Shown here piece by piece: positions 1,350-62,052 of a stretch of 64,000 bases of DNA. This DNA comes from a virus. A model generated the notes under the pieces. It worked only from the letters and a program-made list of their open reading frames with translations. It was not told where the DNA came from and did no database searches. The position numbers and the translations under genes were made by a program. Location of the stretch: positions 62,001-126,000 of IMG/VR virus record IMGVR_UViG_3300025151_008277; one strand, 5' to 3'. The stretch's first letter is position 1, and each line of letters starts with the position of its first letter.

Positions 1350-2384
1350 TTATCTCAATCCAGTAGATTCAAATACGTCTCTTGCTACCCCAGCGGTAAA
1401 GCCTCCTGGTACACCTTTAACTATAACTGACACTGCATTATGACTATGTAGGCTCTCGTTATGAGATGCTACAATCTTAAAGTCTGTAATGCGGGATTCA
1501 TTAGTTAGTTTATCATATAACAATCTTACTGCATCTTCTACGAATTTAAGATAAGCACCATTCTTTTCTGCGAATGCTTGCTCATCTTCTCTCTTTACCA
1601 TTACTTGAGTTTCAGTTTGTAGAGCCTCTAAACATAATTCTTGAAGATCTTCTACCCATAGCATTTCATCGAACTTAACACTAACACGGGCCACGCTTCG
1701 TTGACTATGAGGAACAGTTGCTCTATTTCTGTATTTCTCTGCATGTTCACTTAACTCAAAACTGCAAGGACATGCTGAGGAATAAACAAAATCAAAGTGA
1801 ATATATTTTTTGAACTCACCGTCTTTAGTTAAGTCACCTTCAAATACCACATCGTAGTATTGATAACCTTCTAAACCACTTCGTAAACTTTTTTGTTTAA
1901 TAGGATAAGATATTTTCAACATAATACGAGAGTCAAAACTCTTAAGATTATTTTTATATGTTTCTAAAACATCTTTAATTTTACTGATACTGAATACCTC
2001 GTCTTTATGATCATAAAAACTTCTCATAATTCGAGACATATTAATACCTTTTTTATGAGCCTCTAAACTTACACTACCAGTAACACTAGTTTCGAGCTCG
2101 ATAGTATCTCCGTTTCTCTTTTTATAATTTAGAGGTAATTTAAAATTATGTATTCCTACTTGTTGAATAGGTACTGCAGCTCCTTGAATTAAGCTTGATG
2201 GACCGTTTTGTAGATCTGGTAAAGAAGAAATATATTTTTTATCAGCTTTTACCGAATTATCATATACACGAATAGGAGGGAAATAGCTCTTACTGTATTC
2301 ATCTCCCATTATTTCTTTAGCGATGATGTCCTTCTCTCCAGTCAGCTCGTCATCTTCGCCCAGCCATTCATAATTTTTATCCAT
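1350..2384 (-). CDS. folE2: GTP cyclohydrolase FolE2 (type IB)
   Basis: Converts GTP to 7,8-dihydroneopterin triphosphate, the first step of the 7-deazaguanine (preQ0) pathway. FolE2 hallmarks are all present in 344 residues: LPDLQ near 55, the IQQVGIHNF block near 73-81, the catalytic-cysteine block CPCS at 205-208, PHSQRS at 225-230, and the metal/substrate block SHNESLHSH at 307-315. The first 45 residues are a slightly longer leader than in typical family members. It is divergent from queD, with back-to-back promoters in the 71-base gap, so the two genes are likely expressed together. Confidence 0.92.
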
Positions 2385-2455: not shown

Positions 2456-2896
2456 ATGAGCGATTTTGAGAGTACAAAAATTATTGAACTTGGAAGCTGT
2501 GCTTTTCGTCAACCTAACGCTACTAGTCATTGTAAATATCTTCATGGATATAGATTAGTTGCTAAGTTCTGGTTTGGATGTAAAGAGTTAGATGACAAGA
2601 ATTGGGTTGTTGATTTTGGTGGTTTAAAACAATTAAAACAAAACCTTGAACGTCAATTTGATCATACTACAATTATATCTTCTTCTGATCGATTTTTAGA
2701 TTCTTTTAAAAAATTAAATGAAGCAGGAGCGATTGATTTACGTATTATGGATGGAGTTGGTATTGAAAAATTTGCTGAATACTGTCTCAAAACCGCGCAG
2801 AACTTTATCGACGATATGACTGACGGTAGATGTTGGGTTAATCAAGTTGAAGTATTTGAACACGAAAAGAATAGCGCGATCTGCAAGAAAGGTTAA
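2456..2896 (+). CDS. queD: QueD-like 6-carboxytetrahydropterin synthase
   Basis: Second step of preQ0 synthesis: dihydroneopterin triphosphate to 6-carboxy-tetrahydropterin. The 146-residue protein has the tetrahydropterin synthase T-fold pattern: a Cys (C26) followed after three residues by H-G-Y, a D-F-G-G-L segment near 53-57, F-D-H-T near 68-71 and a final E-V-F-E. The usual zinc motif H-G-H reads H-G-Y here (H30, Y32) and another His (H25) sits next to C26. This marks a variant subfamily, and the exact product is less sure than the fold. Confidence 0.85.
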   Translation: MSDFESTKIIELGSCAFRQPNATSHCKYLHGYRLVAKFWFGCKELDDKNWVVDFGGLKQLKQNLERQFDHTTIISSSDRFLDSFKKLNEAGAIDLRIMDGVGIEKFAEYCLKTAQNFIDDMTDGRCWVNQVEVFEHEKNSAICKKG

Positions 2897-2898
2897 CT

Positions 2899-3075
2899 AT
2901 GGGAAAGGGAAGTAAAGCTAGACCGTATACTGATAAAAAGGATTTTTATTCTAATTGGGATAATATTGATTGGGATAATAAGAGAGAGGAAGTATCTGCA
3001 GAAGCACCGTCTCCTGATAAAATAAATAAGTTGCCATTTGGTAATGATATTGAATACTATGAAGATAGAAATTAA
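2899..3075 (+). CDS. Small hypothetical protein (58 aa) between queD and queE
   Basis: An intact frame begins with ATG 2 bases after the queD stop and ends one base before the best queE start, so it fills the gap exactly and looks like a real gene. It begins MGKGSK, is hydrophilic and rich in Trp, Asp and Asn, and has no recognised domain. Its presence is the main argument for starting queE at 3077 rather than upstream. Confidence 0.65.
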   Translation: MGKGSKARPYTDKKDFYSNWDNIDWDNKREEVSAEAPSPDKINKLPFGNDIEYYEDRN

Positions 3076-3076
3076 T

Positions 3077-3835
3077 ATGACCGACGAAGATTATAGCACA
3101 AAAGAGTTAATACTATCAGACGATAAGATTTTTTATACGATTGAAGGTGAAGGGGAATTTGTAGGTCAGCCTTCTGTGTTTATGCGATTATCTATGTGTA
3201 ATCTAACATGCATTGGATTTGCGTCACCTAATTCTCCGCATGGATGTGATAGTTATGTTTCTTGGAGCGTTAAGAATAAAATGCAATTTAAAGATATTTT
3301 ATCTTTCCTTGAAACTAGTGGCTATAAAGATCACTTACTTAATGGAGCTATTCTTAAGATTACTGGCGGTGAACCTCTAATACAACAAAAGAAATTATTA
3401 GAGCTTATTGATTATATTAATATTGAATGGGGCTGGCTACCTCGTATAGATTTTGAAACTAATGCTACACTTATGCCTGATCCTCGATGGATTCAAAAAT
3501 ATATTGGAGCAACGTTTACTACATCACCTAAGCTTACTTCTAATGGAGACCCTAGAAATAAAAGGTATATTCCTGAAGTACTTGAATGGCACTCTACTTA
3601 TGGTTCAGGTTTTAAGTTTGTAGTCAAAGATGAATCCGATATGGATGAAATTATTAATGACTACGTTGATAAGTTTGATATTCCTGCATCCAGAGTATGG
3701 TTGATGCCATGCTGTGGTAGTAGAGAAGAGCATTCTCGTGTTTGTAGTACGGTTGCAGAGCTTGCTAAGAAGCATTATTTTAACTTTAGTCCTAGATTAC
3801 AATTAGTTATATGGGATAAAGCGTTGAAAGTTTAA
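3077..3835 (+). CDS. queE: QueE, 7-carboxy-7-deazaguanine synthase (radical SAM)
   Basis: Makes CDG from 6-carboxy-tetrahydropterin using a 4Fe-4S cluster and S-adenosylmethionine. Residues 20-33 (YTIEGEGEFVGQPSVF) are the substrate-binding start of the QueE family and TGGEP at 96-100 is the SAM motif. The cluster cysteines are C41, C45 and C57, i.e. C-x3-C-x11-C rather than the classic C-x3-C-x2-C; expanded loops are known in QueE. A longer frame from 3038 exists, but it would overlap the 58-residue gene, and MTDEDY at 3077 is the better start. QueC, the next enzyme, is not in the window. Confidence 0.9.
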   Translation: MTDEDYSTKELILSDDKIFYTIEGEGEFVGQPSVFMRLSMCNLTCIGFASPNSPHGCDSYVSWSVKNKMQFKDILSFLETSGYKDHLLNGAILKITGGEPLIQQKKLLELIDYINIEWGWLPRIDFETNATLMPDPRWIQKYIGATFTTSPKLTSNGDPRNKRYIPEVLEWHSTYGSGFKFVVKDESDMDEIINDYVDKFDIPASRVWLMPCCGSREEHSRVCSTVAELAKKHYFNFSPRLQLVIWDKALKV

Positions 3836-3856: not shown

Positions 3857-4537
3857 ATGAGAATTGCAATCAGCGGCACTGCATGTCAAGGTAAAAGTAC
3901 TTTAATTAAAGACTTTAAAGAAAGGTGGCCGAGTTATAAATCTCCTGATAAAACTTATAGAGATATTATAACTGAACAAAATTTAGAACATTCATCTACT
4001 ACTAATAAGGAGACTCAGATGGCTATTCTTAATTTTATGATTGATGAGCTTCAAAAAACATCTAAAGGAGATAAAGTTATCTTCGATAGATGTCCTCTTG
4101 ATAATATTGTCTATAGTATTTGGGCTGAGGCTAAAAAGGAGTCAGATATTGATGATGCTTTTATTAAAAAGTGTATGACGTTAGTCAGCGAATCTTTAAG
4201 ATTTATTGATATGATTTTATTCGTACCTATAACTAAGGTTGCTCCAGTAGAAATAGAAGAAGATAATTTAAGAGATACAAACGAAGATTATATTGAAGAA
4301 ATAGATAATATTTTCAAAGCAGTTCATAGAGATTATATGAATAATCCTCGTTCTTCTTTTTTCGTAGAAGATGATAGACCCGCTATTATTGAAATTTTCG
4401 GCAGCAGGAAAGAGCGCATAGAATTAATTAAATTATATCTCGATAATGACGGGGATTTCATTGAACCTGGTAATATTATTACCGAAGAAGAATTGAGAGA
4501 AATGGAAAAACTCAAAAAAGCGTTCGGGGTTGACTAA
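3857..4537 (+). CDS. P-loop nucleotide/nucleoside kinase-like protein (AAA_28/NadR-like)
   Basis: A 226-residue protein with a Walker A loop G-T-A-C-Q-G-K-S-T at residues 7-15 and a V-I-F-D-R-C-P-L-D segment near 74-82. That segment is the D-R-x-x-D motif of deoxynucleoside and thymidylate kinase-like folds. It phosphorylates an unknown small molecule. A second kinase of the same type lies inside the queF/dpdA operon (35268-35804), so both 7-deazaguanine loci carry one. The C-terminal 40 residues are acidic and helical. Substrate unknown. Confidence 0.7.
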   Translation: MRIAISGTACQGKSTLIKDFKERWPSYKSPDKTYRDIITEQNLEHSSTTNKETQMAILNFMIDELQKTSKGDKVIFDRCPLDNIVYSIWAEAKKESDIDDAFIKKCMTLVSESLRFIDMILFVPITKVAPVEIEEDNLRDTNEDYIEEIDNIFKAVHRDYMNNPRSSFFVEDDRPAIIEIFGSRKERIELIKLYLDNDGDFIEPGNIITEEELREMEKLKKAFGVD

Positions 4538-5515: not shown

Positions 5516-6166
5516 ATGGAAGTTAACTTAGTTTCAATTACTAAACCAGAAATTAAATTTGATACTGAAGGAACGGCTGAAGATTTAATCGCTTACTGTG
5601 CTCGAGTCTCTAATCCCACTAATCAACACAATACAGCAACTGCACCTAAGCTTTTAGGTTACCTTATTAAACATAAACATTGGTCTCCTTTTGAGATGGT
5701 TGATATGTGTCTAGAAATTAAAACCTCTAGAGCAATTGCAGCTCAAATTTTACGACATCGTTCTTTTTCTTTTCAAGAGTTTAGTCAGAGATATAGCAAC
5801 GCTACAAATTTAGAAGATATTACTTGGCGTCTACAAGGTAAAACTAATAGACAAGTCGGTGAAGAGACATATTATTTGGATGATGTAAACCAAGATATTA
5901 TTGATCAACATCTCAAACTATCTACTACGTTATATAATGATTTAATTGATAAAGGAGTAGCAAAAGAGTGTGCTCGTATGATTTTACCTTTGTGTACTGA
6001 GACTACTATGTATATGAAAGGATCAATTAGATCTTGGGTACATTATATTGATTTAAGATCTAAAGAAGACACCCAACAAGAACATAGAGATATTGCATTG
6101 AAATGTAGAGATATTTTTGTAAATAATTTTCCTAATACTTCTAAAGCATTAACATGGACTCAGTAG
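5516..6166 (+). CDS. thyX: Flavin-dependent thymidylate synthase ThyX
   Basis: Methylates dUMP to dTMP using methylenetetrahydrofolate and FAD/NADPH. The ThyX signature R-H-R-x7-S is present (R80-H81-R82 to S90), with the H-W-S-P-F-E segment near 55-60. Length 216 residues is normal for the family. It supplies dTMP for phage DNA together with the ribonucleotide reductase encoded near 50-53 kb. The gene end overlaps the next glycosyltransferase start by 13 bases. Confidence 0.95.
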   Translation: MEVNLVSITKPEIKFDTEGTAEDLIAYCARVSNPTNQHNTATAPKLLGYLIKHKHWSPFEMVDMCLEIKTSRAIAAQILRHRSFSFQEFSQRYSNATNLEDITWRLQGKTNRQVGEETYYLDDVNQDIIDQHLKLSTTLYNDLIDKGVAKECARMILPLCTETTMYMKGSIRSWVHYIDLRSKEDTQQEHRDIALKCRDIFVNNFPNTSKALTWTQ

Positions 6167-6909
6167 GTGTAATAATTCTCACAAAAGATAACTTTGATGT
6201 AATTAAAAGATGCTTAGATTCTTTTGTAGAAAAAAATACCTATGATAATATTAATTTTTATATTGGGGATACCGGGTCAAGCCAGAATAATTTAGATAAA
6301 TTATACGAATATGTTAAAGAGTTTAAATATACTACTAGAGTTATAAAATTTAATTATTATAATTTTGCAAAAAATAATAATTGGATAGTCAACAACTTAA
6401 TAAAAGAGCGTTTCATTTTATTCTGTAATGATGATATTGAACTTATTAACGACTCATTAACTAATTTAGTTAATAACTGGTCTGAAGATTTGGGAACCGT
6501 GGGCTGTAAGTTACTCTTTTCTAATAATCTTATACAGCACGCTGGCCAAATACACGTTATGTCAGGCTCTGACCCTATTGGTGCTACTCACAAGTTATAT
6601 AACGAAAAAGATAGAAAGTTAGATATAGAATATAATGCTGGCAATACTTTTGCATTTTGCTTAACAACTAAAAAAGTATTTGATACGGTTAATGGCTTAA
6701 ATACAAACTTTAAAACATGTTTTGAAGATGTAGCTTTTAATATATCTTGCTCTCAGGTAGACTTAAAGCATAAATTTGTCGGAACTACCTCGTGTTACCA
6801 TCATGAAAGTGTTTCTCGTAAGAAAAGTAAAAATGATTATATAGCAGAAAATGATTCTCTTTTATTAATGTCGTTAATGAGAAAATTTTATAAAAATAAA
6901 ACAAAGTAA
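6154..6909 (+). CDS. Family 2 glycosyltransferase
   Basis: A GT-A fold glycosyltransferase of 251 residues beginning with the usual V-I-I-L-T-K-D-N segment. It has a nucleotide-sugar/metal motif C-N-D-D-I-E-L near 90, an F-E-D-V acceptor/base segment near 190, and a C-Y-H-H-E-S segment near 212. It transfers an unknown sugar and is cytoplasmic, with no membrane segment. It opens the long glycan gene block and overlaps thyX by 13 bases, suggesting co-transcription from the thyX promoter. Confidence 0.85.
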   Translation: MDSVGVIILTKDNFDVIKRCLDSFVEKNTYDNINFYIGDTGSSQNNLDKLYEYVKEFKYTTRVIKFNYYNFAKNNNWIVNNLIKERFILFCNDDIELINDSLTNLVNNWSEDLGTVGCKLLFSNNLIQHAGQIHVMSGSDPIGATHKLYNEKDRKLDIEYNAGNTFAFCLTTKKVFDTVNGLNTNFKTCFEDVAFNISCSQVDLKHKFVGTTSCYHHESVSRKKSKNDYIAENDSLLLMSLMRKFYKNKTK

Positions 6910-6910
6910 T

Positions 6911-8227
6911 ATGAAAACTTTAAACAATTTATTTGATCAAAACACTAAACCTTACCTGCTTATTGGCAAAGGCCCGTCGTTTAATATAATTGATAAAATT
7001 TTATTAAACAAGTACTTCACAATAGCATTAAATCATGCAGTAGAAAACACACAATGTGATGCTGTCTCTATTATTGATATAGATGTTGTTAGAGATTGCC
7101 CTGAAGCAATATACCGCAATGCTAAAACTCTTATAATACCGTGGCATCCTCATGATAAAAATAATAATTTTCAACCGTGTAGTAAAACTATCGTAGATTA
7201 TTGTAAGGAAATAAAGGTTTTAGGAGATATGCTTGCTGAGGGTAGAATACACTCCTATAATGCTAGTAGCGCAAAAGCTTTTAACTTTGAAGACAATAAA
7301 GAACTACCTAACTATAATGTTTTTATTAATAACGGAGACAGTATATTCACTATGCTAGTAGCTAACAATAATAAAAAAATATATTCTATTGGTATTGACG
7401 GTGGTACAACATATAGTAGTTCGTTTTCTAATTATAAGCCTGGTGGTAATGGTCGAAGCTTTGAAGAGAGTTTAGCGGTCATTAAGAAGGTAGAAGAACA
7501 AAGTAATGCTGAACTTATTAGATTAGGGGAATTAGAAGAAATAAAAGTATTTGTAGGTTGTTCTGAAGCAGAGCTCGTACCTACTAAAGTATTAGAATAT
7601 TCAATAAAGAAAAACACTAATAATCCTGCATCTATTATTCCGTTATTTCAATGTGATACTAAACATAGAGTGCCTCAGAACCCTCAATGTCGACCTAGAA
7701 CTCCGTTCTCTTTTCAAAGATTTTTTATACCTTCTCTGACTAGCGGTAAAGCATTTTATTTTGACTCTGATATGCTGGTCTTTAAAGATATGGCAGAGTT
7801 ACTCTCTTATGATTTTGAAGGGTATGACGCCTTGTCTTGTAAAGACATGAATATATACGGTCATTGGAAAGGTTCTGAGTATGCAGTATTAATGCTCGAT
7901 TGTGATAATATTAAATGGGATATCAACTCTATTATTGATGATTTAGATTCTGGTAAACTTACATACGAAAAATTAATGTTTGATTTTGCCATGGCTAAAG
8001 TAAATCCGGTTTTTGATCCATCGTGGAATAGTCTTGATACATACGAGGAAAATAAAACAGCAAATCTTCACTATACTAATATGAACACGCAACCATGGCG
8101 ACATAATGGTAGTCCGTATATGAATTTGTGGTTCAAATATTTAAAAGAAGCAGTAGATAATAATATTTTATCTAAAGAGTTAGTAGTAAGTCATGGCCAA
8201 AAAGGTCATATAAGAAAATTTAAATAA
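6911..8227 (+). CDS. Two-domain protein: DUF115/MptE-like domain fused to GT8-like glycosyltransferase
   Basis: The N-terminal half (about 1-205) starts with L-L-I-G-K-G-P-S-F, then N-H-A and I-I-D-I-D; that is the G-x-G-P-S pattern of the DUF115/sialyltransferase-like Rossmann family. The C-terminal half (from about 215) begins I-K-V-F-V-G-C-S-E and carries R-F-F-I-P and F-Y-F-D-S-D-M, the D-x-D block of GT8-type glycosyltransferases, ending with an H-Y-T-N-M block. 438 residues in total. The fusion suggests two consecutive or paired sugar-handling steps. Two bases separate it from the upstream gene. Confidence 0.7.
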   Translation: MKTLNNLFDQNTKPYLLIGKGPSFNIIDKILLNKYFTIALNHAVENTQCDAVSIIDIDVVRDCPEAIYRNAKTLIIPWHPHDKNNNFQPCSKTIVDYCKEIKVLGDMLAEGRIHSYNASSAKAFNFEDNKELPNYNVFINNGDSIFTMLVANNNKKIYSIGIDGGTTYSSSFSNYKPGGNGRSFEESLAVIKKVEEQSNAELIRLGELEEIKVFVGCSEAELVPTKVLEYSIKKNTNNPASIIPLFQCDTKHRVPQNPQCRPRTPFSFQRFFIPSLTSGKAFYFDSDMLVFKDMAELLSYDFEGYDALSCKDMNIYGHWKGSEYAVLMLDCDNIKWDINSIIDDLDSGKLTYEKLMFDFAMAKVNPVFDPSWNSLDTYEENKTANLHYTNMNTQPWRHNGSPYMNLWFKYLKEAVDNNILSKELVVSHGQKGHIRKFK

Positions 8228-8228
8228 T

Positions 8229-8921
8229 ATGATAGGTATCAATTTAAGTAAGAAAATATTAAACGAAGTTAATAACTTATTACCATGGCATACCAAAACT
8301 AATATTTCTAGAGATATAATTTTAGGCAAATCTCAAAATTCTAATAAAAGAAATTATATTGAGAAAATACCTGATGATAGAATTACTAATTTAGATAGCT
8401 TAATTAATTTATCTGATAAAACAGTACTTGAGATGGGTTGTCTTGAAGGTTCTCATACCTTAGGTTTACTGCAATATGCGAAAGAAGTTGTTTCTATTGA
8501 TTGTAGACCGGTTAACGTTATTAAAACTTTAACTCGTTTGAGCTTTCATGGTAAAACTTCCCGAGTTTTTTGTTTTAACGCAGATGACTTATCAGTAGAT
8601 AATTATGGTTTTTATGATGTTATATTTCACTGCGGTGTTTTGTATCACCTTAAAGATCCTATATCTCATTTAAATAATATTTTTAAAATGTGTAACTATA
8701 TATTTTTAGATACACACGTTACAGAAGGTTCTAATAAAATAGTACCTGAAAATAATTGGAAAGCTCCGTTTGCTGGTAAAGATGATACTGCTTTGTGGTT
8801 AAATGTGGATGAGCTAGAAAAAATTTGTACTGATAATAGTTTTACTGTTAATAAACTTGAAAGAAGAGATGAGCGTAATGGTCTTAGAATATCTTGGTTA
8901 CTAGAAAAAAATGAAAAATAA
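8229..8921 (+). CDS. SAM-dependent methyltransferase (class I)
   Basis: A 230-residue Rossmann methyltransferase with motif I V-L-E-M-G-C-L-E-G at 74-82, a motif II acidic segment (V-V-S-I-D) and motif IV Y-D-V-I-F-H-C-G-V-L-Y-H-L, close to CmoB-like and sugar/O-methyltransferases. The acceptor is unknown; the setting inside a glycan cluster favours sugar methylation. Two bases separate it from the upstream gene and it overlaps the cupin gene by 11. Confidence 0.8.
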   Translation: MIGINLSKKILNEVNNLLPWHTKTNISRDIILGKSQNSNKRNYIEKIPDDRITNLDSLINLSDKTVLEMGCLEGSHTLGLLQYAKEVVSIDCRPVNVIKTLTRLSFHGKTSRVFCFNADDLSVDNYGFYDVIFHCGVLYHLKDPISHLNNIFKMCNYIFLDTHVTEGSNKIVPENNWKAPFAGKDDTALWLNVDELEKICTDNSFTVNKLERRDERNGLRISWLLEKNEK

Positions 8922-10516: not shown

Positions 10517-12052
10517 ATGCCTAAAGTATGTATATTAGCAGCAGGTATAGGTTCAAGGAATAAATGTATTGAGGGCTTACATAAAGCTCTCTTACCCTTG
10601 AATAATAAACCTGTTATTTCTCATATAATTGATTCATTTCCTCAAGATATGGAAATAGTCATTGCTCTTGGGTATAAACAAAAGCAATTACTTTCTTATT
10701 TAGAAGAAGTACATACTTCTAAAAATATTACTTATGTTACTGTAGATAATTTTGATAAATCTGGATCAGGTCCCGGATATAGTCTTTATCAATGTAAAAA
10801 CCATTTACAAGAGCCGTTTATTTTTACTTCAGTAGATACTTTATTAGATGAGTTTCCTGTAAGCGTTGATAGTAATTGGATCGGTACTTCTAATATAGAT
10901 GAAAAAAAATCTTCTAGTTATTGTTTAGTTTCAGTAGATAACGAAACCGTAAAAGATTTATATTACGGTAGTGGTAATTTAGCTTTCGTTGGAACTGCTG
11001 GTGTTAAGGATTATAAGACATTTTGGAATAATTTAGAAAAAACATTATTATCAGTTAACGAAATACAAGTTATACCTGCATTACAGAGTCTTACTAATAT
11101 TAAGGCTATTAATTCTGTATGGTATGATACTGGTAACATAGAATCCTATTACAATACTAAAAAGGTATATAATAATGATATTGTAGCCCCTAAAAATAAC
11201 GAAACAATATTTTTAGACAATAATCTCGTAATAAAATACTTTAGTAATTCTAAAAAGAACTTAAGTCGAGTTGAACGAGTTAAATTCTTAAACGATTGTA
11301 CACCAGATACAACATATCTTAATGACAACATGTATTGTTATGAATATATTAATGGAGCTCTATTAAGCAATATTACTAACGTTGAGATTATGAGAGAGTT
11401 TTTTAGTTTTTGTGATAGTAAACTCTGGTTAAAGAAAAATAGAGATGATATTTTTATTAGTAATTGTAGGTCTATGTATGAATTCAAAACTAAATCTAGG
11501 ATAAATGAATTAATAGATAGTGATTTAGATAAAATACGATTTATTAACGGGCTTGAGGTACAACCTATTAGAACAATTTATGAAAAAATAGGTTGGGGAC
11601 AAATTTATAATAATGCTTTACCGGTTTCTTTTCACGGAGACCTACAACCAGAAAATATTATATACAATAATGAGAGATTTTTTCTTATAGACTGGAGAGA
11701 GTCTTTTGGTAACAGTCTTGAAGTGGGGGATATATATTACGATCTATCTAAACTGTATCATGGTTTAGATATTAACGGTACTTTAATGAATAGTAAAAAT
11801 TATTTTTATAACATTGAAGATAAATCTGCCAATATAGGATACAACATAAAGAGTAATTTGATCGATCTTAAAGACACACTCAAAACTTTTGTTATTGAAA
11901 AAGGTTTGGATTGGTATAACATAAGATTGTTAGGTGCATTGCATTATTTGAATATTTGTACATTATATAAAGACTTTCATAACGGAGAGTATGGTAGGTT
12001 TTTATTTCTTTATAGCAAATATCTTTTACAAAACATCTTGCAAAACAAATAA
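10517..12052 (+). CDS. Fused sugar/choline nucleotidyltransferase and APH-type kinase
   Basis: The N-terminal half (1 to about 230) has the nucleotidyltransferase signature L-A-A-G-I-G-S-R, then a basic K-A-L-L-P segment and a D-T-G-N-I-E-S end. The C-terminal half carries the APH/choline kinase active site H-G-D-L-Q-P-E-N near 373-380 and I-D-W-R-E-S near 393. Kinase plus nucleotidyltransferase in one 511-residue chain would phosphorylate and then activate a substrate such as a sugar or choline (compare LicA/LicC). With a SIS isomerase next, a sugar-phosphate substrate fits well. Confidence 0.82.
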   Translation: MPKVCILAAGIGSRNKCIEGLHKALLPLNNKPVISHIIDSFPQDMEIVIALGYKQKQLLSYLEEVHTSKNITYVTVDNFDKSGSGPGYSLYQCKNHLQEPFIFTSVDTLLDEFPVSVDSNWIGTSNIDEKKSSSYCLVSVDNETVKDLYYGSGNLAFVGTAGVKDYKTFWNNLEKTLLSVNEIQVIPALQSLTNIKAINSVWYDTGNIESYYNTKKVYNNDIVAPKNNETIFLDNNLVIKYFSNSKKNLSRVERVKFLNDCTPDTTYLNDNMYCYEYINGALLSNITNVEIMREFFSFCDSKLWLKKNRDDIFISNCRSMYEFKTKSRINELIDSDLDKIRFINGLEVQPIRTIYEKIGWGQIYNNALPVSFHGDLQPENIIYNNERFFLIDWRESFGNSLEVGDIYYDLSKLYHGLDINGTLMNSKNYFYNIEDKSANIGYNIKSNLIDLKDTLKTFVIEKGLDWYNIRLLGALHYLNICTLYKDFHNGEYGRFLFLYSKYLLQNILQNK

Positions 12053-29256: not shown

Positions 29257-30558
29257 ATGGCAACTACAACATGGTCAGATTCATTTTTAAGCGCAGGTAG
29301 TCATTTATTCTCTACTAATCTTGCTAATAAAATAGCTAAGTACCAAGATTTAGCAGATAGAATATGTTACGATCTAGGATACCCTTTAGTTAATCTAGAG
29401 ATTCACGGTCAGCAACTGTATACTAATATAGCGCGCTCAGTGGAAATGTTTAGTAAGTTCGCTGGGTACACAGAAGAATTTTTAGTTTTTGATAGTAGCC
29501 TTTATACTCGTGGTAAAGGTTTAAATATAGAAAAATTATTAACCAATACACCTGAGTTAACAAGTACGTATGCTACTACTTTACAAACTACCCAGGCTAC
29601 AACTAATACGGTTGCTACACTTACTTCAATTGATTTCGAAGCTAATTCTGACGATACATTTATTACAGTCTTTCAGTTTGATGTTTCTGATATAGTTGTA
29701 GATCCATCTGAATATACCTTTACTGTTACACTAGGAGATACTAATACTCAAATTACTAAACTACTTTCGGTAGCTACGTCTGGTGTTCCAACAGCAACAG
29801 TAAGTGAAACTGAGTTCGGTACTGTTTTTACCACTTCCACTGAAATTTTTGAGCTAAGTACTACAGTAGCTAGTAACTTAATATCTATTGGGTTAGTTCC
29901 TAAGACTGATAAATCTGGTTCTATAGTAGCAAACAGAAACGCTACAGTTATTAACGATACTACGACAACAACACTTACTACACAAAAAGCTATTATAGCT
30001 AATTTTGATGAACTAACCAAACAATATCGTAAAGTTATTGAAGTATATAGCTTTGACGAAGCTAGTAATAGCGGTATCAATAACCTTTTTACCATCGAGC
30101 AGACATTAGCGCAACAAACTTATTTTAGTTATGCTATGGGTAACTATGGATTTGATTTAATTAGTTGGTATATATTAAAGCAGTGGATGGAAACGAGAGA
30201 GAAAATGCTCTCTATACGTCGTACGTTTAAGTTTGATGATAGGACTCAGCATTTACATTTGTTCCCTGAACCAAAAACAGGAGAAAGCTTTTACGGGGTA
30301 GTAGGAGCTTATGTTGAAAAACCAATTAGAGACTTAATTGTAGAGCCATGGGTCTTTCAGTACGCATCTGCATTAACTAAAATATCAATCGGTAGGGTTC
30401 GTAGTAAGTTCGGTGGTACTCAATTATTTGGTGGAGGTACATTAGATACTTCCTTGTTACAAGAAGGTCTTTCAGAGAAGAAAGAGTTGGAGCAAATGTT
30501 ATTGACTGGTACTCCAGGATTTGGTGACGCAGCTCCGCCTCAATTCTTCGTAGGATGA
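29257..30558 (+). CDS. Neck protein, gp13-like, with an internal insertion
   Basis: 433 residues. The ends match the neck protein of marine T4-like phages: an N-terminal L-Y-T-N-I-A-R-S-V-E-M-F helix, and a C-terminal Y-A-S-A-L-T-K-I...S-K-F-G-G...G-G-G-T-L-D ending P-P-Q-F-F-V-G. Between about 95 and 250 lies a Thr/Val/Ser-rich beta domain that looks inserted and is probably surface exposed. The protein would seal the portal after packaging. The downstream start overlaps its stop by 4 bases. Confidence 0.6.
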   Translation: MATTTWSDSFLSAGSHLFSTNLANKIAKYQDLADRICYDLGYPLVNLEIHGQQLYTNIARSVEMFSKFAGYTEEFLVFDSSLYTRGKGLNIEKLLTNTPELTSTYATTLQTTQATTNTVATLTSIDFEANSDDTFITVFQFDVSDIVVDPSEYTFTVTLGDTNTQITKLLSVATSGVPTATVSETEFGTVFTTSTEIFELSTTVASNLISIGLVPKTDKSGSIVANRNATVINDTTTTTLTTQKAIIANFDELTKQYRKVIEVYSFDEASNSGINNLFTIEQTLAQQTYFSYAMGNYGFDLISWYILKQWMETREKMLSIRRTFKFDDRTQHLHLFPEPKTGESFYGVVGAYVEKPIRDLIVEPWVFQYASALTKISIGRVRSKFGGTQLFGGGTLDTSLLQEGLSEKKELEQMLLTGTPGFGDAAPPQFFVG

Positions 30559-31013
30559 TACATAAAAAAGGAGATTTTAAAAAAGGTCTTTTTAGACCAA
30601 AAAATAAAAACAAGTACATCGGTCAAAAGCACCCAGCTTACAGAAGCTCTTGGGAGCTTTATTTTTTTCAGTGGTGTGATCGTAACCCTAATGTACTTGA
30701 ATGGGCTTCTGAAGCAGTAATTGTTCCATATATTTCCCCTTTAGACAATAAAGTACATAGATATTTTGTTGATAACATATTAATACTAAAAGAGGGTAGT
30801 AAGAACGTAAAATACCTTGTAGAGATTAAACCGTATAAACAAACTATACCACCTAACGCTACAAGAAGAAAAAAAAGAGAGACATTGCTACACGAACAAG
30901 CAACATATGAGGTTAATAAAGTTAAATGGGAAGCTGCGTCAGAATGGGCAAAGAAAAACGGTTACAAATTCATTATCATCACAGAGAAAGAACTATTTCC
31001 TGAGAAAAAGTAG
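30555..31013 (+). CDS. Head completion nuclease gp4-like
   Basis: 152 residues. K-Y-I-G, Y-R-S-S-W-E-L, F-F-Q-W-C-D-x-N-P, a W-A-S-E segment and H-R-Y-F-V-D are the gp4/gp50 head completion blocks. Together with the later V-E-I-K they form a TnsA/PD-(D/E)XK nuclease site (E, D, E-x-K). In T4, gp4 trims or protects the packaged DNA end before the tail attaches. Confidence 0.88.
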   Translation: MIHKKGDFKKGLFRPKNKNKYIGQKHPAYRSSWELYFFQWCDRNPNVLEWASEAVIVPYISPLDNKVHRYFVDNILILKEGSKNVKYLVEIKPYKQTIPPNATRRKKRETLLHEQATYEVNKVKWEAASEWAKKNGYKFIIITEKELFPEKK

Positions 31014-34315: not shown

Positions 34316-34346
34316 AAAAAGGGTCCGCGAAAGCGGGCCCTTTTCT
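34316..34346 (+). terminator. Rho-independent terminator after the capsid gene
   Basis: GGGTCCGC and GCGGGCCC form an 8-base stem (one G-T pair) around a GAAA loop, followed by TTTTCTTTTT. The A-run on the other side may also let it serve the minus-strand operon that ends at 34366. Confidence 0.85.
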
Positions 34347-34365
34347 TTTTATATGAACACTTACC

Positions 34366-35271
34366 TTATTGTCTACCAGTCTTTGACCATGGAACATCTT
34401 CGTTCCATAGTTTTTCTTCTATTAGATGTTCATGAGAACATCGCTGTGGGTTAATATCCCACCCACCTCGTCTCACATAGAGACAAGTAACAGAAAGTTC
34501 TTGAGGATTGAATTTATCCCAAAGCCTCTTATAAATAGTCTCACAGATCTCTTCATGAAAGTGACATTCATCTCTAAACGATACAATGTACTTTAGCATG
34601 CTACCATATGTAGGGACTTTATTACCTTTCATATGAATATAAACATCCCCCCAGTCAGGTTGCGAAGTAACCCTGCAGTTACTCTTAAGTAGTTGAGAAG
34701 ATACTTTATAGTCTTCAATACCTGTAGATTCAAACTCCTCTAGAATATCAGGATTCTCGGAATACTCTTCAATATCTAAACTAATAAACTTCTCTTCTAA
34801 GTTATCATACAGTAATTGTTCTTTTAAGAACTCATTTACTCCGATTTCAAGATTAACCGGATCAAATAATTGTACCCTTACATCTGTTTGTAGTAGTTTA
34901 CTTAGATCTGCTTCAGCTAATTCTTTTACTTTCTTGAATACTTCACAAGCATCACCGCCTAATTTCTCCATATTGAAGCTATTCCAATAAAGCTTCATAG
35001 ACTTTGATTCTACGATGTATTTACTATTACAAGGGTACACTACCTTCGCTGCAAAAGCCGTCGGGAGACCTGAATCTAGAAGGGCAGACACCTCATATCC
35101 GTTCCATACATCACATCCAACGAAGGGAAGCTGTGTACTTTTGATTTTAAGGTGCTTTCTATTGTTAGATCTAGGCTCTCTCACGAGTAACTTAGGATCA
35201 TATGTAGACTTATATTGACTTGACTGGCCAAGGTGCTTACTGATATTACTATTATCTAATTTATCGCTCAT
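34366..35271 (-). CDS. queF: QueF, NADPH-dependent preQ0 reductase
   Basis: Reduces 7-cyano-7-deazaguanine (preQ0) to 7-aminomethyl-7-deazaguanine (preQ1). The 301-residue length and motif order are those of the bimodal E. coli-type QueF: V-E-S-K-S-M-K-L-Y-W-N-S-F-N at 87-100, L-L-K-S-N-C (catalytic Cys C199) with Q-P-D-W-G, then F-H-E at 238-240 and R-R-G-G-W-D-I-N-P near 267-275. Last gene of the minus operon with dpdA, the formyltransferase and a kinase. The presence of QueF means the DNA base is expected to be preQ1-derived, not preQ0-derived. Confidence 0.95.
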   Translation of the reverse strand: MSDKLDNSNISKHLGQSSQYKSTYDPKLLVREPRSNNRKHLKIKSTQLPFVGCDVWNGYEVSALLDSGLPTAFAAKVVYPCNSKYIVESKSMKLYWNSFNMEKLGGDACEVFKKVKELAEADLSKLLQTDVRVQLFDPVNLEIGVNEFLKEQLLYDNLEEKFISLDIEEYSENPDILEEFESTGIEDYKVSSQLLKSNCRVTSQPDWGDVYIHMKGNKVPTYGSMLKYIVSFRDECHFHEEICETIYKRLWDKFNPQELSVTCLYVRRGGWDINPQRCSHEHLIEEKLWNEDVPWSKTGRQ

Positions 35272-35804
35272 ATTAAAAAGTTTTTTAAAGTTTGCATACG
35301 CTCACTTACTGTTCCTGATATTTTAACTACATTCTCGAATTTTTCAATACCAATCTCTTCGTATATCTCTATAATTCGTTCTCTAAATTTAACATCAGTA
35401 GATCTTTCCCCATCATCCACTAACTTAACATCTTTAGGATCAGTATAAAATATCTTACTATATCTATTCAAATATTTTTCAAAAGACTCTTTTAGTATAT
35501 TATAAGTCTTCTTACTCACTTTATTATTCTCATAAAAGTATTTCGTATAAACATACCCATCAAATATACATCTATCTAATATCCAATTACCCTTCCTATT
35601 AATATTATTCATATGATGTTCCCAAATCTGTAATTGAGTATTATCATAAGAACTAGCTTCATTATTGATATCAAAACCTTTTCTTTTGATATCTCTTGTT
35701 ACTTCATCTACAAATTGATAGCCTTTATGACTATACAATGCTTTACACAATGTAAGTAAAGTAGTCTTTCCAGTTGATTGAGCCCCAGTAAAAGAAAATA
35801 TCAT
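35268..35804 (-). CDS. P-loop kinase-like protein in the 7-deazaguanine operon (AAA_28/NadR-like)
   Basis: 178 residues with Walker A G-A-Q-S-T-G-K-T-T at 7-15 and W-I-L-D-R-C-I-F-D, the D-R-x-x-D-like block, near 74-82. The same layout occurs in the kinase next to queE (3857-4537). Its start and stop overlap the neighbours by 4 bases, so it is translated with queF and the formyltransferase. Substrate unknown. Since DpdA enzymes exchange bases in finished DNA, a nucleotide kinase is not obviously needed. Confidence 0.72.
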   Translation of the reverse strand: MIFSFTGAQSTGKTTLLTLCKALYSHKGYQFVDEVTRDIKRKGFDINNEASSYDNTQLQIWEHHMNNINRKGNWILDRCIFDGYVYTKYFYENNKVSKKTYNILKESFEKYLNRYSKIFYTDPKDVKLVDDGERSTDVKFRERIIEIYEEIGIEKFENVVKISGTVSERMQTLKNFLI

Positions 35805-36373
35805 ATCTTGTTTTTTAAGAAGTTAGTCCATAAGTTTATAGACATACCATGCAATTGCAAAGTTAGCTCAGATAAGGAATCAAACGTATTCTCAGTACTA
35901 TCCGTAGCAATAACGTTACCTGAGTCTAGTTCTGGAATTACTTCATGAATAACACAACCAACTTCTTCGTAGTTGACAGGACTATTCCATACTTTAGCTT
36001 GAGGGTTAAAGCCTTTCAACTCAGGATACTTAGTAATGAGACCAGGATGACCGTTATATACCTTAGAGCTGTCGCAAAACTCTTCAGGTAAGATGCGTAG
36101 ATAACCATGTAATGTCACAATAACATCATCATACCATTTCTCATTTAAGATACTATACCCGAGTTTGTCTGATACGTTTAAGTAGTCTACATCCTTAGGC
36201 CACTTAGGTAGTTGATATATTTTATCCCAACAAGCTCCTTTGAGCTCATTATTTACACCCTCTAGATATGTCCTATTAGTTACTACTAAGTCAGGCCATC
36301 GCCCTAGAGCAGAAGATATTTGAGCGATTTCACTACCGGTTTGAGAGAAGAATGTTACCCATTTACTAGACAT
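35801..36373 (-). CDS. dpdN: Formyltransferase of the PurN/GART fold, candidate dPreQ1 formyltransferase (DpdN-like)
   Basis: 190 residues. V-T-L-H-G-Y-L-R-I-L near 86-95, Y-N-G-H-P-G-L-I-T-K-Y-P near 106-117 and P-E-L-D-S-G near 147-152 match glycinamide ribonucleotide formyltransferase blocks. The catalytic triad is intact as N107, H109 and D150, so formyl transfer from 10-formyl-tetrahydrofolate is expected. No purine synthesis genes are nearby. Its place between dpdA and queF points to formylation of the aminomethyl group of preQ1. A dPreQ1 formyltransferase named DpdN has been proposed in phages; orthology here is inferred from context and fold. Confidence 0.7.
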   Translation of the reverse strand: MSSKWVTFFSQTGSEIAQISSALGRWPDLVVTNRTYLEGVNNELKGACWDKIYQLPKWPKDVDYLNVSDKLGYSILNEKWYDDVIVTLHGYLRILPEEFCDSSKVYNGHPGLITKYPELKGFNPQAKVWNSPVNYEEVGCVIHEVIPELDSGNVIATDSTENTFDSLSELTLQLHGMSINLWTNFLKNKI

Positions 36374-37172
36374 AACGATTTACAATGTGTTTAAACATTT
36401 TAGTATTGTACATGATATCTTCAACTTGATCTTCATCAGGCTTAGCAGCAATTAAATCTGCGAGTAGTTGTGAAGGTTTATGATTAAGTCCATGATCTCC
36501 ATTATATCGATAACCAAGCAAGCCTGCTACTACTGGATTAGAAGTATCAATTGATCGAATATTATATTTACCAGGGTAATAAGCAAACTCCCGAGCAAGA
36601 CTAGCACCTAATAGATGGTGAGGTTTCTTAAAGTTCCATAAACCTTCTCGTACTAGTCGTTCGATTAGATGCTGACGACCGTATGCAAACTTTTCTAGCT
36701 TTGTTTCTCCATTAGCAGTGATCTGATAATAACTAAAATCAAAACTGATCGCAATATAGTCTGCTTTATCAGACATAAATTTATAGCATTCTGAGATCTC
36801 ACTCCAAGTTTTACCTTGAACAGCACCGATTCTCATACATTCTGGTCGACCAATATAGTCACTAGTGAATTTTTCCCATGACTCCATCGTTCCGTCTGCG
36901 TCTTCAAGCACATCTGGTACAATATAGTAGTTAGGATTGATTTTTCTGATCCAGTCAATGTATTTTTGAGGGTCAAAAGAGTGTCCTAACTCAAAAATTG
37001 AGTTATCTAGCAAGATTTCCCCGTCAGGATGCATTGCTTTGTATTTTTCCAAGAACCACTCTGCATATTCAGGTTGTTCTTCCATCAAATGTACGAGACA
37101 ATACTGATAGTCATTATATTCTAATGATTTCTCAAGTAACGCGATAGGTGATTCGTGAGATACTTTGATCAT
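36366..37172 (-). CDS. dpdA: DpdA-like DNA 7-deazaguanine transglycosylase
   Basis: 268 residues of TGT-like TIM barrel type: L-L-D-N-S-I-F-E-L-G at 54-63, I-V-P-D-V-L-E-D at 84-91, R-I-G-A-V-Q-G at 114-120, H-L-L-G-A-S near 186-191, and R-S-I-D-T-S-N-P at 206-213. D56 and D209 stand where TGT enzymes carry the acid/base and nucleophile aspartates. The zinc cysteines of tRNA TGT are absent, as in phage DpdA proteins. It would swap guanine in DNA for the modified base. First gene of the operon, with its own start-abutting promoter. Confidence 0.78.
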   Translation of the reverse strand: MIKVSHESPIALLEKSLEYNDYQYCLVHLMEEQPEYAEWFLEKYKAMHPDGEILLDNSIFELGHSFDPQKYIDWIRKINPNYYIVPDVLEDADGTMESWEKFTSDYIGRPECMRIGAVQGKTWSEISECYKFMSDKADYIAISFDFSYYQITANGETKLEKFAYGRQHLIERLVREGLWNFKKPHHLLGASLAREFAYYPGKYNIRSIDTSNPVVAGLLGYRYNGDHGLNHKPSQLLADLIAAKPDEDQVEDIMYNTKMFKHIVNRYV

Positions 37173-37178
37173 ACAGCT

Positions 37179-37206
37179 ATTATATGGGTTTCTTATGTTA
37201 AATCAA
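37179..37206 (-). promoter_or_regulatory. Sigma-70-like promoter of the dpdA operon, start-codon-abutting
   Basis: Minus strand: TTGATT, 16-base spacer, TATAAT, 6 bases to the ATG. Identical geometry and nearly identical boxes to the queD and folE2 promoters 34 kb away. Confidence 0.78.
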
Positions 37207-37208
37207 GG

Positions 37209-37216
37209 ATTAAATA
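37209..37216 (+). promoter_or_regulatory. Late-type promoter box (ATTAAATA)
   Basis: Ends 6 bases before the ATG at 37223. Confidence 0.45.
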
Positions 37217-37222
37217 TTTCAA

Positions 37223-41857: not shown

Positions 41858-42331
41858 TTACTCCCAAGGAAAGTTAAGCCAAACATCTGCTCCTTCAATA
41901 CTGCTTGCATAATAATCAGGTTTAAACTCTGATTTAGTTTTGTAGTATAAACAAGCAGTTTTAATATTCGGTACTTTTACTTTATTAGATAGAAATTTAT
42001 ATAGTTCGTGAAACTCTGATAATGTCTTTCCTGAGTCAGCTAAATCATCTACAAGTAGAACATTATTATATTTGTTTAGTTCATCAATTAGAGATAACGT
42101 TCCAGAGCTAAAAACAGTAGCCTTCCTTTCATTATCATCATTATAAGATTTTATTTGGATTGTCTTAAACGTAGGTACTTCGAGCTCGTATGATATAAGA
42201 GTTGCTGGTATATTACCACCTTTCGCAATACCTATGATACAATCAAAAACAGTATTTGATTGTTGTATTTCTAAGCAAACTTGATGACTTAACGTCTTAA
42301 TTTCTTTAAAAGAGATATCTTTATATTTCAT
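41858..42331 (-). CDS. Phosphoribosyltransferase (xanthine/hypoxanthine type)
   Basis: 157 residues with the PRPP-binding motif V-L-L-V-D-D-L-A-D-S-G-K-T near 90-102, an I-G-I-A-K-G-G-N-I-P loop near 33-42 and a C-terminal W-L-N-F-P-W-E, the ending seen in Gpt-type purine phosphoribosyltransferases. It would join a purine base to PRPP to give the nucleotide. In this genome it might salvage guanine-related bases released by base exchange. It overlaps the small upstream gene by 4 bases. Confidence 0.82.
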   Translation of the reverse strand: MKYKDISFKEIKTLSHQVCLEIQQSNTVFDCIIGIAKGGNIPATLISYELEVPTFKTIQIKSYNDDNERKATVFSSGTLSLIDELNKYNNVLLVDDLADSGKTLSEFHELYKFLSNKVKVPNIKTACLYYKTKSEFKPDYYASSIEGADVWLNFPWE

Positions 42332-49860: not shown

Positions 49861-52107
49861 ATGAAAGTAAAGAAGAGGGACGGTCGACTCGAGGACTTTA
49901 ATATCGAGAAAATTCACGATGTACTTTTTTGGTCTACAAAAGATATCAAGGGTGTTAATGTTAGTGATATCGAGATCAATGCTAAGCTCCAGGTATTTGA
50001 TGGAATTGAAAGTACAAAGATTCATGAAGTATTAATTTATTCAGCTGCTGACTTAATTAGTGAAGCCACGCCTAATTACCAACAAGTAGCTGCAAACTTA
50101 CTTAATTATTATCTCCGTAAGCAAGTTTTTGGGGTATCAGATAATATGCCATCCCTTCAAGAGGTTATCGAGAAAAATATTAAGTACGGAGTATATGATA
50201 AAAATATTTTAGATTTATATTCCAAAGAAGAGATTAATCAGTTAGATAATTTTATAAAGCATAATAGAGACTATATGTTTGTATATGCTGGTCTTCAACA
50301 ACTTGTAGATAAGTATCTTCTTAAAGATAGAACCACAGGTAAAGTTTATGAAACTCCTCAGTATATGTATATGCTTATTGCTATGATTCTTAATAGTAAT
50401 GAGAAAGAAAATAGATTGAAAGCTGTAAAGAGTTTCTATAATGATATTAGCACGTTTGAAATTTCGTTACCTACACCAATCATGTGCGGTGTCCGTACAC
50501 CCTCACGGCAATATAGCTCTTGTACATTGATTGATGTAGGTGACTCCTTACCTTCTATATTCCATTCGAATACCGCAGTGGGATATTATACTGCAAATCG
50601 AGCAGGTATTGGATTAAACTTCGGTCGCATCCGAGGAGTTGGATCTAAGATTAGAAATGGTGAAGTAGTACATACTGGAGTTATTCCTTTTCTTAAAATG
50701 TTCGAAAGTACTACTAAGTGCTGTACTCAAAACGGAGTACGAGGTGGTTCAAGTACTACCCACTTTCCTTTTTGGCATAAAGAGATTGAAGACATTTTAG
50801 TACTAAAAAATAATCGCGGTACTGATGATAATAGAGTACGTAAGATGGATTACTCTATTCAGTTTAATCGTCTTTTCTATAAACGGTTTGTAGAAGATGG
50901 TAATATAACTTTATTCTCTCCTCATGAAGTAACTGATCTATATGATAAGTTCTTTTCTGATACAGAAGAATTTATTAAGCTATATGAAAAGTATGAAAGG
51001 AGTCGCAGTATATTTAAGAGAGAAATATCTGCAAGAAAACTCTTCATGCATTTCTGTCAAGAGCGTATAGAGACAGGTAGGATGTATGTAATGAATGTAG
51101 ACAATACTAATGAACATAGCTCGTTTACTGATACTGTCTATATGTCTAATCTTTGTCAAGAGATTACATTACCTACTGATCCTATAACTCATATAGACGA
51201 TGCTGAGTCTGGAGAGATTGCTCTTTGTATTTTATCCGCTATTAACGTTGGAGCTGTTCGTAAGTTAGAAGATCTTGAAAGTATAACTTACAATATTGTT
51301 AAAGCTCTAGATTATATTATTGACAACCAATACTATCCTGTCGATGCTTCTAAGAAGATGATCAATCGTCGTAGTATTGGAGTTGGCGTTACAAATCTTG
51401 CTTACTACCTAGCTAAGAATGGATATTCATATGAAGATAAAGAAGCAATTAATTTAGTAGATGAGTTAGCGGAGAATATACAATACTACCTACTGAAGGC
51501 TTCAGTACGTTTAGCTAAAGAGAGAGGTAAGTGTGAGTGGTTTGATAGAACGAAATATAGTAAAGGTATTTTGCCTATTGATACATATAGTAAAGAAGTA
51601 GATAAAATTTGTAAAAGAAAACTCACACACGACTGGAAACAGTTACGAGAGGATATCTTAGAACATGGATTAAGAAATAGTACATTAACTGCGTTGATGC
51701 CTTGTGAGAGTTCCTCTTTAGTTACAAACTCAACAAATGGTATAGAACCTCCTAGAAGTTTAGTAACAATTAAAAAGTCTAAGCAAGGATTAATACCTCA
51801 AGTCGTACCTGAAATTGCTAAACTTAAAAACAAATATACATTAGCATACGATATGAAAGACAATATTGGTTATGTTAATATTTGCGCAGTACTACAAAAG
51901 TATTTTGATCAAGCTATCTCAGCAAACCATTACTATAATTTTGCTAGATATGACGAGGGTAACTTACCTATGTCGGTTGTTGCGAAAGATGTTTTATACT
52001 CTTATAAAATGGGATTAAAAACTCTTTACTACGCTAATACAGATGACGGAAAAACAGATACTGTTGCTGAAGAGGATGATTGTGCAGGTGGTGCATGCAA
52101 ACTATGA
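49861..52107 (+). CDS. nrdA: Ribonucleotide reductase class Ia, large subunit
   Basis: 748 residues. The catalytic set is present: Q-Y-S-S-C near 218, N-L-C-Q-E near 429-433 (Asn, Cys and Glu of the active site), A-L-C-I-L-S-A-I-N, the radical-transfer tyrosine pair Y-Y-A-N near 728, and C-terminal redox cysteines C-A-G-G-A-C. An N-terminal ATP-cone-like segment (V-K-K-R-D-G-R) is also visible. It makes deoxynucleotides from host ribonucleotides for phage DNA. Confidence 0.96.
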   Translation: MKVKKRDGRLEDFNIEKIHDVLFWSTKDIKGVNVSDIEINAKLQVFDGIESTKIHEVLIYSAADLISEATPNYQQVAANLLNYYLRKQVFGVSDNMPSLQEVIEKNIKYGVYDKNILDLYSKEEINQLDNFIKHNRDYMFVYAGLQQLVDKYLLKDRTTGKVYETPQYMYMLIAMILNSNEKENRLKAVKSFYNDISTFEISLPTPIMCGVRTPSRQYSSCTLIDVGDSLPSIFHSNTAVGYYTANRAGIGLNFGRIRGVGSKIRNGEVVHTGVIPFLKMFESTTKCCTQNGVRGGSSTTHFPFWHKEIEDILVLKNNRGTDDNRVRKMDYSIQFNRLFYKRFVEDGNITLFSPHEVTDLYDKFFSDTEEFIKLYEKYERSRSIFKREISARKLFMHFCQERIETGRMYVMNVDNTNEHSSFTDTVYMSNLCQEITLPTDPITHIDDAESGEIALCILSAINVGAVRKLEDLESITYNIVKALDYIIDNQYYPVDASKKMINRRSIGVGVTNLAYYLAKNGYSYEDKEAINLVDELAENIQYYLLKASVRLAKERGKCEWFDRTKYSKGILPIDTYSKEVDKICKRKLTHDWKQLREDILEHGLRNSTLTALMPCESSSLVTNSTNGIEPPRSLVTIKKSKQGLIPQVVPEIAKLKNKYTLAYDMKDNIGYVNICAVLQKYFDQAISANHYYNFARYDEGNLPMSVVAKDVLYSYKMGLKTLYYANTDDGKTDTVAEEDDCAGGACKL

Positions 52108-61714: not shown

Positions 61715-62052
61715 TGCATGAATTCTGGGATGATTTAATAGAACGTAAGTATTCTAATAGATCTAGCTTCTTCGATTTACATATAACTCAATTAACTAAG
61801 TTTAAATCAGGAGATTATAATCAATACTTTGGTTACTGTGCTGATGATATTAACATGGTAAACGTGTGTTATTATAAGAATGATCACGGTAAATTTATAG
61901 GAATCGGAAAAGGAGAGACTGAATATCAAGCAGAAGATATGCATAAAATACACTTGCATATGGAATCTGAGTTAAATGATGATATTATATTAAAAATATT
62001 ATGTAATCATTATAAATGGAAAATTGATAATTTTTTCGACTTATGTGAGTAG
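61714..62052 (+). CDS. Hypothetical protein (112 aa)
   Basis: Starts on the last base of the glycosyltransferase stop. H/D/Y-rich, alpha/beta, no membrane segment, no recognised family. Probably co-expressed with the glycosyltransferase pair. Confidence 0.6.
   Translation: MHEFWDDLIERKYSNRSSFFDLHITQLTKFKSGDYNQYFGYCADDINMVNVCYYKNDHGKFIGIGKGETEYQAEDMHKIHLHMESELNDDIILKILCNHYKWKIDNFFDLCE

Follow-up and report, generated by a model that had tools for sequence, protein, structure and literature searches.

Downstream of the T4-type major capsid gene gp23, and convergent with it, we identified a cassette of four overlapping genes in a marine T4-like phage (IMG/VR record IMGVR_UViG_3300025151_008277). 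The stretch that we analysed, referred to here as the window, comprises 64,000 nucleotides (positions 62,001 to 126,000) of this 127-kb virus record. The four minus-strand genes overlap by 8, 4 and 4 bases and encode a minimal protein of the TGT/DpdA fold as predicted by a structure model, a PurN-fold formyltransferase, a P-loop kinase and a bimodal QueF. They lie between gp23 and two plus-strand genes, and a symmetric hairpin with T-runs on both sides separates queF from gp23. The T4-like assignment of the record rests on gp23, an S77 prohead protease, a family B polymerase, a DnaB-type helicase, a RecA-like protein, sheath and terminase. Open reading frames were listed for the whole record by joining the sequence outside the window to it, and this revealed further genes of the preQ1 pathway, so that FolE2, QueD, QueE, QueC and QueF are all encoded and the pathway is complete.

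Features of the cassette and of associated genes. Positions are those of the window unless stated otherwise.
Position	Strand	Length (aa)	Feature and predicted role	Supporting observation
34316..34350	.		Bidirectional terminator between the cassette and the convergent gp23 gene	GGGcCCGC-TTTC-GCGGaCCC hairpin with T-runs on both sides
34366..35271	-	301	Bimodal QueF, preQ0 to preQ1 reductase	QueF_N 4e-31 and QueF 1.4e-18; Cys in SNC at 197-199, QPDWG at 204, HFHEE at 237
35268..35804	-	178	P-loop kinase, proposed kinase of the modified dGMP analogue	AAA_28 7.6e-20 (72 bits, cut-off 27); phrog_2107 'thymidylate kinase'; GAQSTGKTT
35801..36373	-	190	PurN-fold formyltransferase, proposed to formylate the preQ1 amine (DpdN-like)	Formyl_trans_N 5e-9; N107/H109/D150
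36366..37172	-	268	DpdA3-like, TGT-fold base-exchange enzyme (predicted), minimal, no zinc site	Conserved D56, D87, H186, D209; clade-specific N57 and R166
37173..37222	.		50-base divergent intergenic region before a plus-strand gene; likely holds the cassette promoter (inferred)	Same layout in relatives
1350..2384	-		FolE2 GTP cyclohydrolase	GCHY-1 2.9e-73
2456..2896	+		QueD	PTPS 6.4e-16; 42% to immuto QueD
3038..3835	+		QueE-like radical SAM enzyme	phrog_2076 3.9e-41
3857..4537	+		Second AAA_28 kinase, paralogue of the cassette kinase	Directly after QueE
41858..42331	-		Phosphoribosyltransferase; may salvage the released guanine (inferred)	Pribosyltran 5e-18; homologue in the immuto Que cluster
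50009..50638 of the record, outside the window			QueC	3.6e-54

A preliminary description made from the sequence alone had reported these four genes as a TGT-like protein without zinc cysteines, a formyltransferase with an intact N107/H109/D150 triad, a P-loop kinase and a bimodal QueF with its catalytic Cys, and we confirm that observation, including the coordinates, strand and lengths. The 268-residue protein has no Pfam family above cut-off, and sequence searches of Pfam, NCBIfam and the PDB did not place it. However, its AlphaFold model (pLDDT 93.8) matches tRNA-guanine transglycosylases in 50 of the 50 listed PDB hits (best E 4.2e-9, probability 1.00) and viral DpdA-like proteins in BFVD. 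It carries no CxCxxC motif and only three Cys, and thus lacks the zinc-binding Cys3His site of Tgt proper, and it is about 100 residues shorter than the TGT chains it matches. The formyltransferase scores 37.2 bits against the PurN equivalog TIGR00639, far below the cut-off of 150.1 bits. Its nearest solved relatives are GAR transformylases, with which it shares the fold and the N/H/D triad, but its N-terminal part has diverged. The two outcomes that had been named in advance as contradicting the assignments, a 268-residue protein outside the TGT superfamily and a formyltransferase among ordinary purine or sugar enzymes, were therefore not observed. As a profile, the kinase best matches thymidylate kinase over its full length (4.8e-7), followed by deoxynucleoside kinase. 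QueF has both domains and all of the expected motifs, although it does not reach the NCBIfam equivalog cut-off (255.5 of 293.45 bits), as may be expected of a divergent phage protein.

The cassette recurs beyond this phage. Flavobacterium phage vB_FspM_immuto (NC_055915) carries the same four genes in the same order, with DpdA (44%), formyltransferase (41%), kinase (30%) and QueF (45%), and its DpdA, QueF, QueD, QueE and FolE are already annotated. The insertion of 7-deazaguanine into DNA is thus a previously described kind of system. A phosphoribosyltransferase homologue is also present. In immuto, FolE and these genes form a single run on one strand, whereas in our record FolE2 and QueDE lie apart and the four genes form a reversed cassette beside gp23. 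A scan of IMG/VR with the 268-residue protein gave 25 relatives, and the cassette is retained in every one whose locus is long enough, with the QueF gene further away in one case. A profile scan confirmed at least 575 stretches of this window type. A 13-sequence alignment was too diverse to serve as a query, and the enzyme of Weizmannia phage Youna2 alone found no relatives.

In 81 unique window-type IMG/VR loci with at least 1.5 kb downstream of the transglycosylase, the kinase is found downstream in 76, QueF in 72 and the formyltransferase in 43. The kinase occurs without the formyltransferase in 33 loci, whereas the formyltransferase never occurs without the kinase. The core unit is therefore transglycosylase, kinase and QueF, and formylation is an addition. 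Of the five exceptions, two carry the AAA_28 kinase elsewhere on the contig, two belong to the phiST/MA9V-3 type with another small P-loop kinase upstream, and one is a 13.8-kb fragment. Contigs from MAGs follow the same logic: one carries QueE, PRT, QueD, DpdA, FT, kinase, QueF and QueC together, and another carries DpdA, kinase, QueF and QueC. An extra gene encoding 115–116 aa in 33 relatives has no Pfam match (phrog_1485 only), a moderate all-helical model (pLDDT 70.8) and no fold match, and so we do not assign it a MazG-like role.

Outside the window clade, related enzymes sit beside kinases of other families. These include a T4 gp1-type dNMP kinase in Aeromonas phage Ahp1 and Vibrio phages D479 and (weakly) Bakedbeans, thymidylate-kinase-like phrog_761 proteins in Youna2 and Bacillus phage BSP7, and P-loop phrog_19196 proteins in phiST and MA9V-3. 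The association is not uniform. In the gp1-kinase subclade, the kinase is immediately downstream in 42 of 82 loci, while the other 40 mostly have a DUF3310 protein in this position. Campylobacter firehammerviruses CP220/CPt10 (DpdA3-type) have a homologous transglycosylase (40%) followed by an AAA_28 kinase, but no QueF or formyltransferase beside them, so the base differs (ADG rather than preQ1). In CP220, 100% of dG is reported to be replaced by dADG (PMC8306585).

As controls we examined nine DpdA1/2-type phages, including phages 9g, CAjan, Dp-1 and the Rosebush group, which cover only about five independent lineages. None has a kinase near DpdA. Their neighbours include Que genes and, in many, polymerase clamps or ParB-like proteins. 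In a tree, these mostly longer control proteins separate from the whole group described above with 100/100 support, the kinase families follow the subclades, and the window protein falls in a 98/92 clade with CP220, consistent with the subfamily reportedly named DpdA3 by Cui et al. 2023. Residues D56, D87, H186 and D209 are invariant in 163 of 163 relatives and shared with all nine controls, indicating a common catalytic core, although the correspondence of D56, D87 and D209 to TGT D102/D156/D280, and thus to the catalytic Asp pair (general base and nucleophile), is by motif rather than by coordinates. In contrast, N57 and R166 are invariant in the 163 proteins, while N57 is Ser in all nine controls and R166 is missing at that column in eight of nine. 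R166 might be a 5'-phosphate ligand, but this is only a guess. The DpdA3-like proteins are acidic (pI 4.7–6.2). However, some DpdAs that act on DNA are acidic too, and low pI is therefore not an argument against DNA binding.

Other nucleotide-pool genes join the cassettes of some relatives. A dATP/dGTP diphosphohydrolase (PF18909, 8e-22, five loci) or an IMPDH/GMP reductase (4e-55, four loci) is inserted between the formyltransferase and the kinase. PF18909 is the DUF5664 family, which converts dGTP and dATP to the monophosphates in Z-phages (PMC12884076). In addition, phiST has a MazG-like gene and immuto a PRA-PH-type gene upstream. No MazG or PF18909 enzyme was found in the record studied here, although the PF18909 search lacked a positive control.

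On the basis of these associations we favour, with roughly even confidence, a model in which the base swap is made on free nucleotides before DNA synthesis rather than on finished DNA, the opposite of the current view. In this view, the phage builds preQ0 with FolE2, QueD, QueE and QueC, and QueF reduces it to preQ1. The TGT-fold enzyme would then exchange guanine for the 7-deazaguanine base, most likely on dGMP rather than in finished DNA, the adjacent kinase would phosphorylate the modified dNMP, host or phage enzymes would complete the triphosphate, and the phage polymerase would incorporate it, so that guanine could be replaced throughout the genome. The formyltransferase would add a formyl group to the aminomethyl group, on base, nucleotide or DNA, giving formyl-preQ1 in this clade and plain preQ1 in relatives without it. 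Gene content, predicted folds, catalytic residues and conserved linkage are supported directly by sequence or structure model. However, every reaction, including base exchange, phosphorylation of a modified dGMP and formylation of preQ1, is inferred, as are the nucleotide-level substrate, the final base and protection from restriction. The model would explain why a nucleotide kinase accompanies this subclade, why dGTP-to-dGMP and guanine-depleting enzymes join it, and why replacement in CP220 is reported to be complete, whereas the measured DpdA1/2-type phages reach only part of the guanines (PMC6884629). Nucleotide-level base swapping has a recent precedent in Z-genome phages, where DmtZ, DutZ and DUF5664 work in a manner like that proposed here: dNTP to dNMP, base swap on the dNMP, phosphorylation and incorporation (PMC12884076). 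DmtZ has the NDT fold and uses dAMP, while the protein described here has a predicted TGT fold and a proposed dGMP substrate. It may work like DmtZ but is not a DmtZ.

The interpretation in the preliminary description, that DpdA inserts preQ1 or its formyl derivative into phage DNA to escape restriction, is supported only in part. The gene assignments and the inferred product are well supported, and FolE2, QueD, QueE and QueC add evidence that the description did not use. However, formyl-preQ1 appears to be clade-specific, since the formyltransferase is optional, and the kinase, which had been left unexplained, is the conserved partner and makes insertion into DNA only one of two live mechanisms. 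Escape from restriction is plausible by analogy with published DpdA phages (PMC6884629).

Post-replicative exchange on DNA remains a serious rival and is only somewhat less likely than the favoured model. The fold and catalytic Asp/His residues are those of TGT and DpdA, deletion of DpdA in phage CAjan abolishes modification (PMC6884629), the immuto homologue is annotated as a DNA guanine transglycosylase, and no characterised TGT-superfamily enzyme is known to act on anything other than polynucleotides. The formyltransferase could then act on base or DNA. Moreover, dNMP kinases are common in T4-like phages, so part of the linkage could be generic and the kinase might simply feed replication. 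The use of a modified dGTP by the polymerase had been mentioned for Campylobacter phages (PMC6884629) before Cui et al. 2023 reportedly found DpdA3 and argued for post-replicative insertion. However, DNA-level exchange does not explain why kinases of several families sit beside this subclade and not beside DpdA1/2, nor the dGTP-diphosphohydrolase and GMP-reductase genes in the same cassettes, and complete replacement would need the enzyme to reach every guanine.

Two further readings are less likely. The formyltransferase may make a formylated purine precursor or another metabolite, leaving dPreQ1 or another 7-deazaguanine only in the DNA. The similarity to GAR transformylases and the many relatives that lack the gene are compatible with this. 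We consider it unlikely because of the low PurN equivalog score, the overlapping frames within the cassette, the absence of the gene from cassettes without the kinase, and the same gene order in immuto. In contrast, the linked Formyl_trans_N domain, QueF and DpdA-like protein agree with DpdN, the proposed dPreQ1 formyltransferase (10.1093/nar/gkad657). It is very unlikely that the genes instead boost queuosine in host tRNA. FolE, QueD, QueE, QueC and QueF are shared with tRNA queuosine synthesis, but the transglycosylase lacks the zinc motif, is shorter than TGT and has relatives in phages with fully modified DNA (CP220, PMC8306585).

7-Deazaguanine DNA is described as a nucleic-acid-level modification made by DpdA (for example PMC12783734), and in its chemistry the cassette belongs with such systems. 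What differs is the kinase linkage, which suggests a possibly surprising mechanism. The evidence leaves room, at slightly less than even likelihood, for the reading that DpdA3-type enzymes are not DNA transglycosylases but the first TGT-fold enzymes acting on mononucleotides, which with a dedicated dNMP kinase, and in some phages a dGTP diphosphohydrolase or GMP reductase, convert the dGTP pool into a 7-deaza-dGTP pool. If a very large group of phages (at least 575 window-type and at least 491 Ahp1-type stretches in IMG/VR) makes a modified dGTP in this way, complete guanine replacement would have a simple explanation, and the idea raised for Campylobacter phages would gain its missing enzymes. 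It would also offer a one-enzyme route to 7-deaza-dGMP, and guanine in these phages would join adenine in Z-phages as a base replaced through the nucleotide pool by a dedicated base-exchange enzyme.

A second AAA_28 kinase gene is located directly after the gene for QueE, far from the cassette, and Campylobacter CP220 also has two such kinases. Elsewhere in the window, the genes for a family 2 glycosyltransferase, a GT8-like protein and a SAM methyltransferase lie in a row, a 511-aa protein fuses a MobA-like nucleotidyltransferase with a phosphotransferase (APH-like) domain, and a protein with a TnsA-like endonuclease domain is encoded in the head gene cluster.

Coordinates of additional genes in the window and in the loci of relatives (L numbers denote individual relatives' loci)
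Sequence	Coordinates	Strand	Feature
Window	3857-4537	+	Second AAA_28 kinase
Window	6154-8921	+	Glycosyltransferase family 2, GT8-like and SAM methyltransferase genes
Window	10517-12052	+	MobA-like nucleotidyltransferase/APH-like fusion
Window	30555-31013	+	TnsA-like endonuclease domain protein
L126	3932-4336		dATP/dGTP diphosphohydrolase (PF18909)
L109	7381-8337		IMPDH/GMP reductase
L018	9381-9728		115-116-aa predicted all-helical protein (phrog_1485)
L025	8797-10817		HIT-domain protein and ornithine cyclodeaminase-like protein

In some relatives, the cassette itself carries additional genes. The dATP/dGTP diphosphohydrolase lies between the formyltransferase and the kinase, and is also found in L080, L083, L129 and L071. 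The IMPDH/GMP-reductase gene is likewise present inside the cassettes of L098, L116 and L125. The predicted all-helical protein, which has no Pfam match, occupies a position between the formyltransferase and the kinase in L018 and 32 other loci, and has conserved DYG and DKxQRL motifs. The HIT-domain and ornithine cyclodeaminase-like proteins are encoded inside the cassette of two relatives, the second being L070. In the Ahp1-type loci (L149-L228), the slot after the transglycosylase holds either a gp1-type dNMP kinase or a DUF3310 protein, the two being mutually exclusive, and a DCD/dUTPase-like gene follows.
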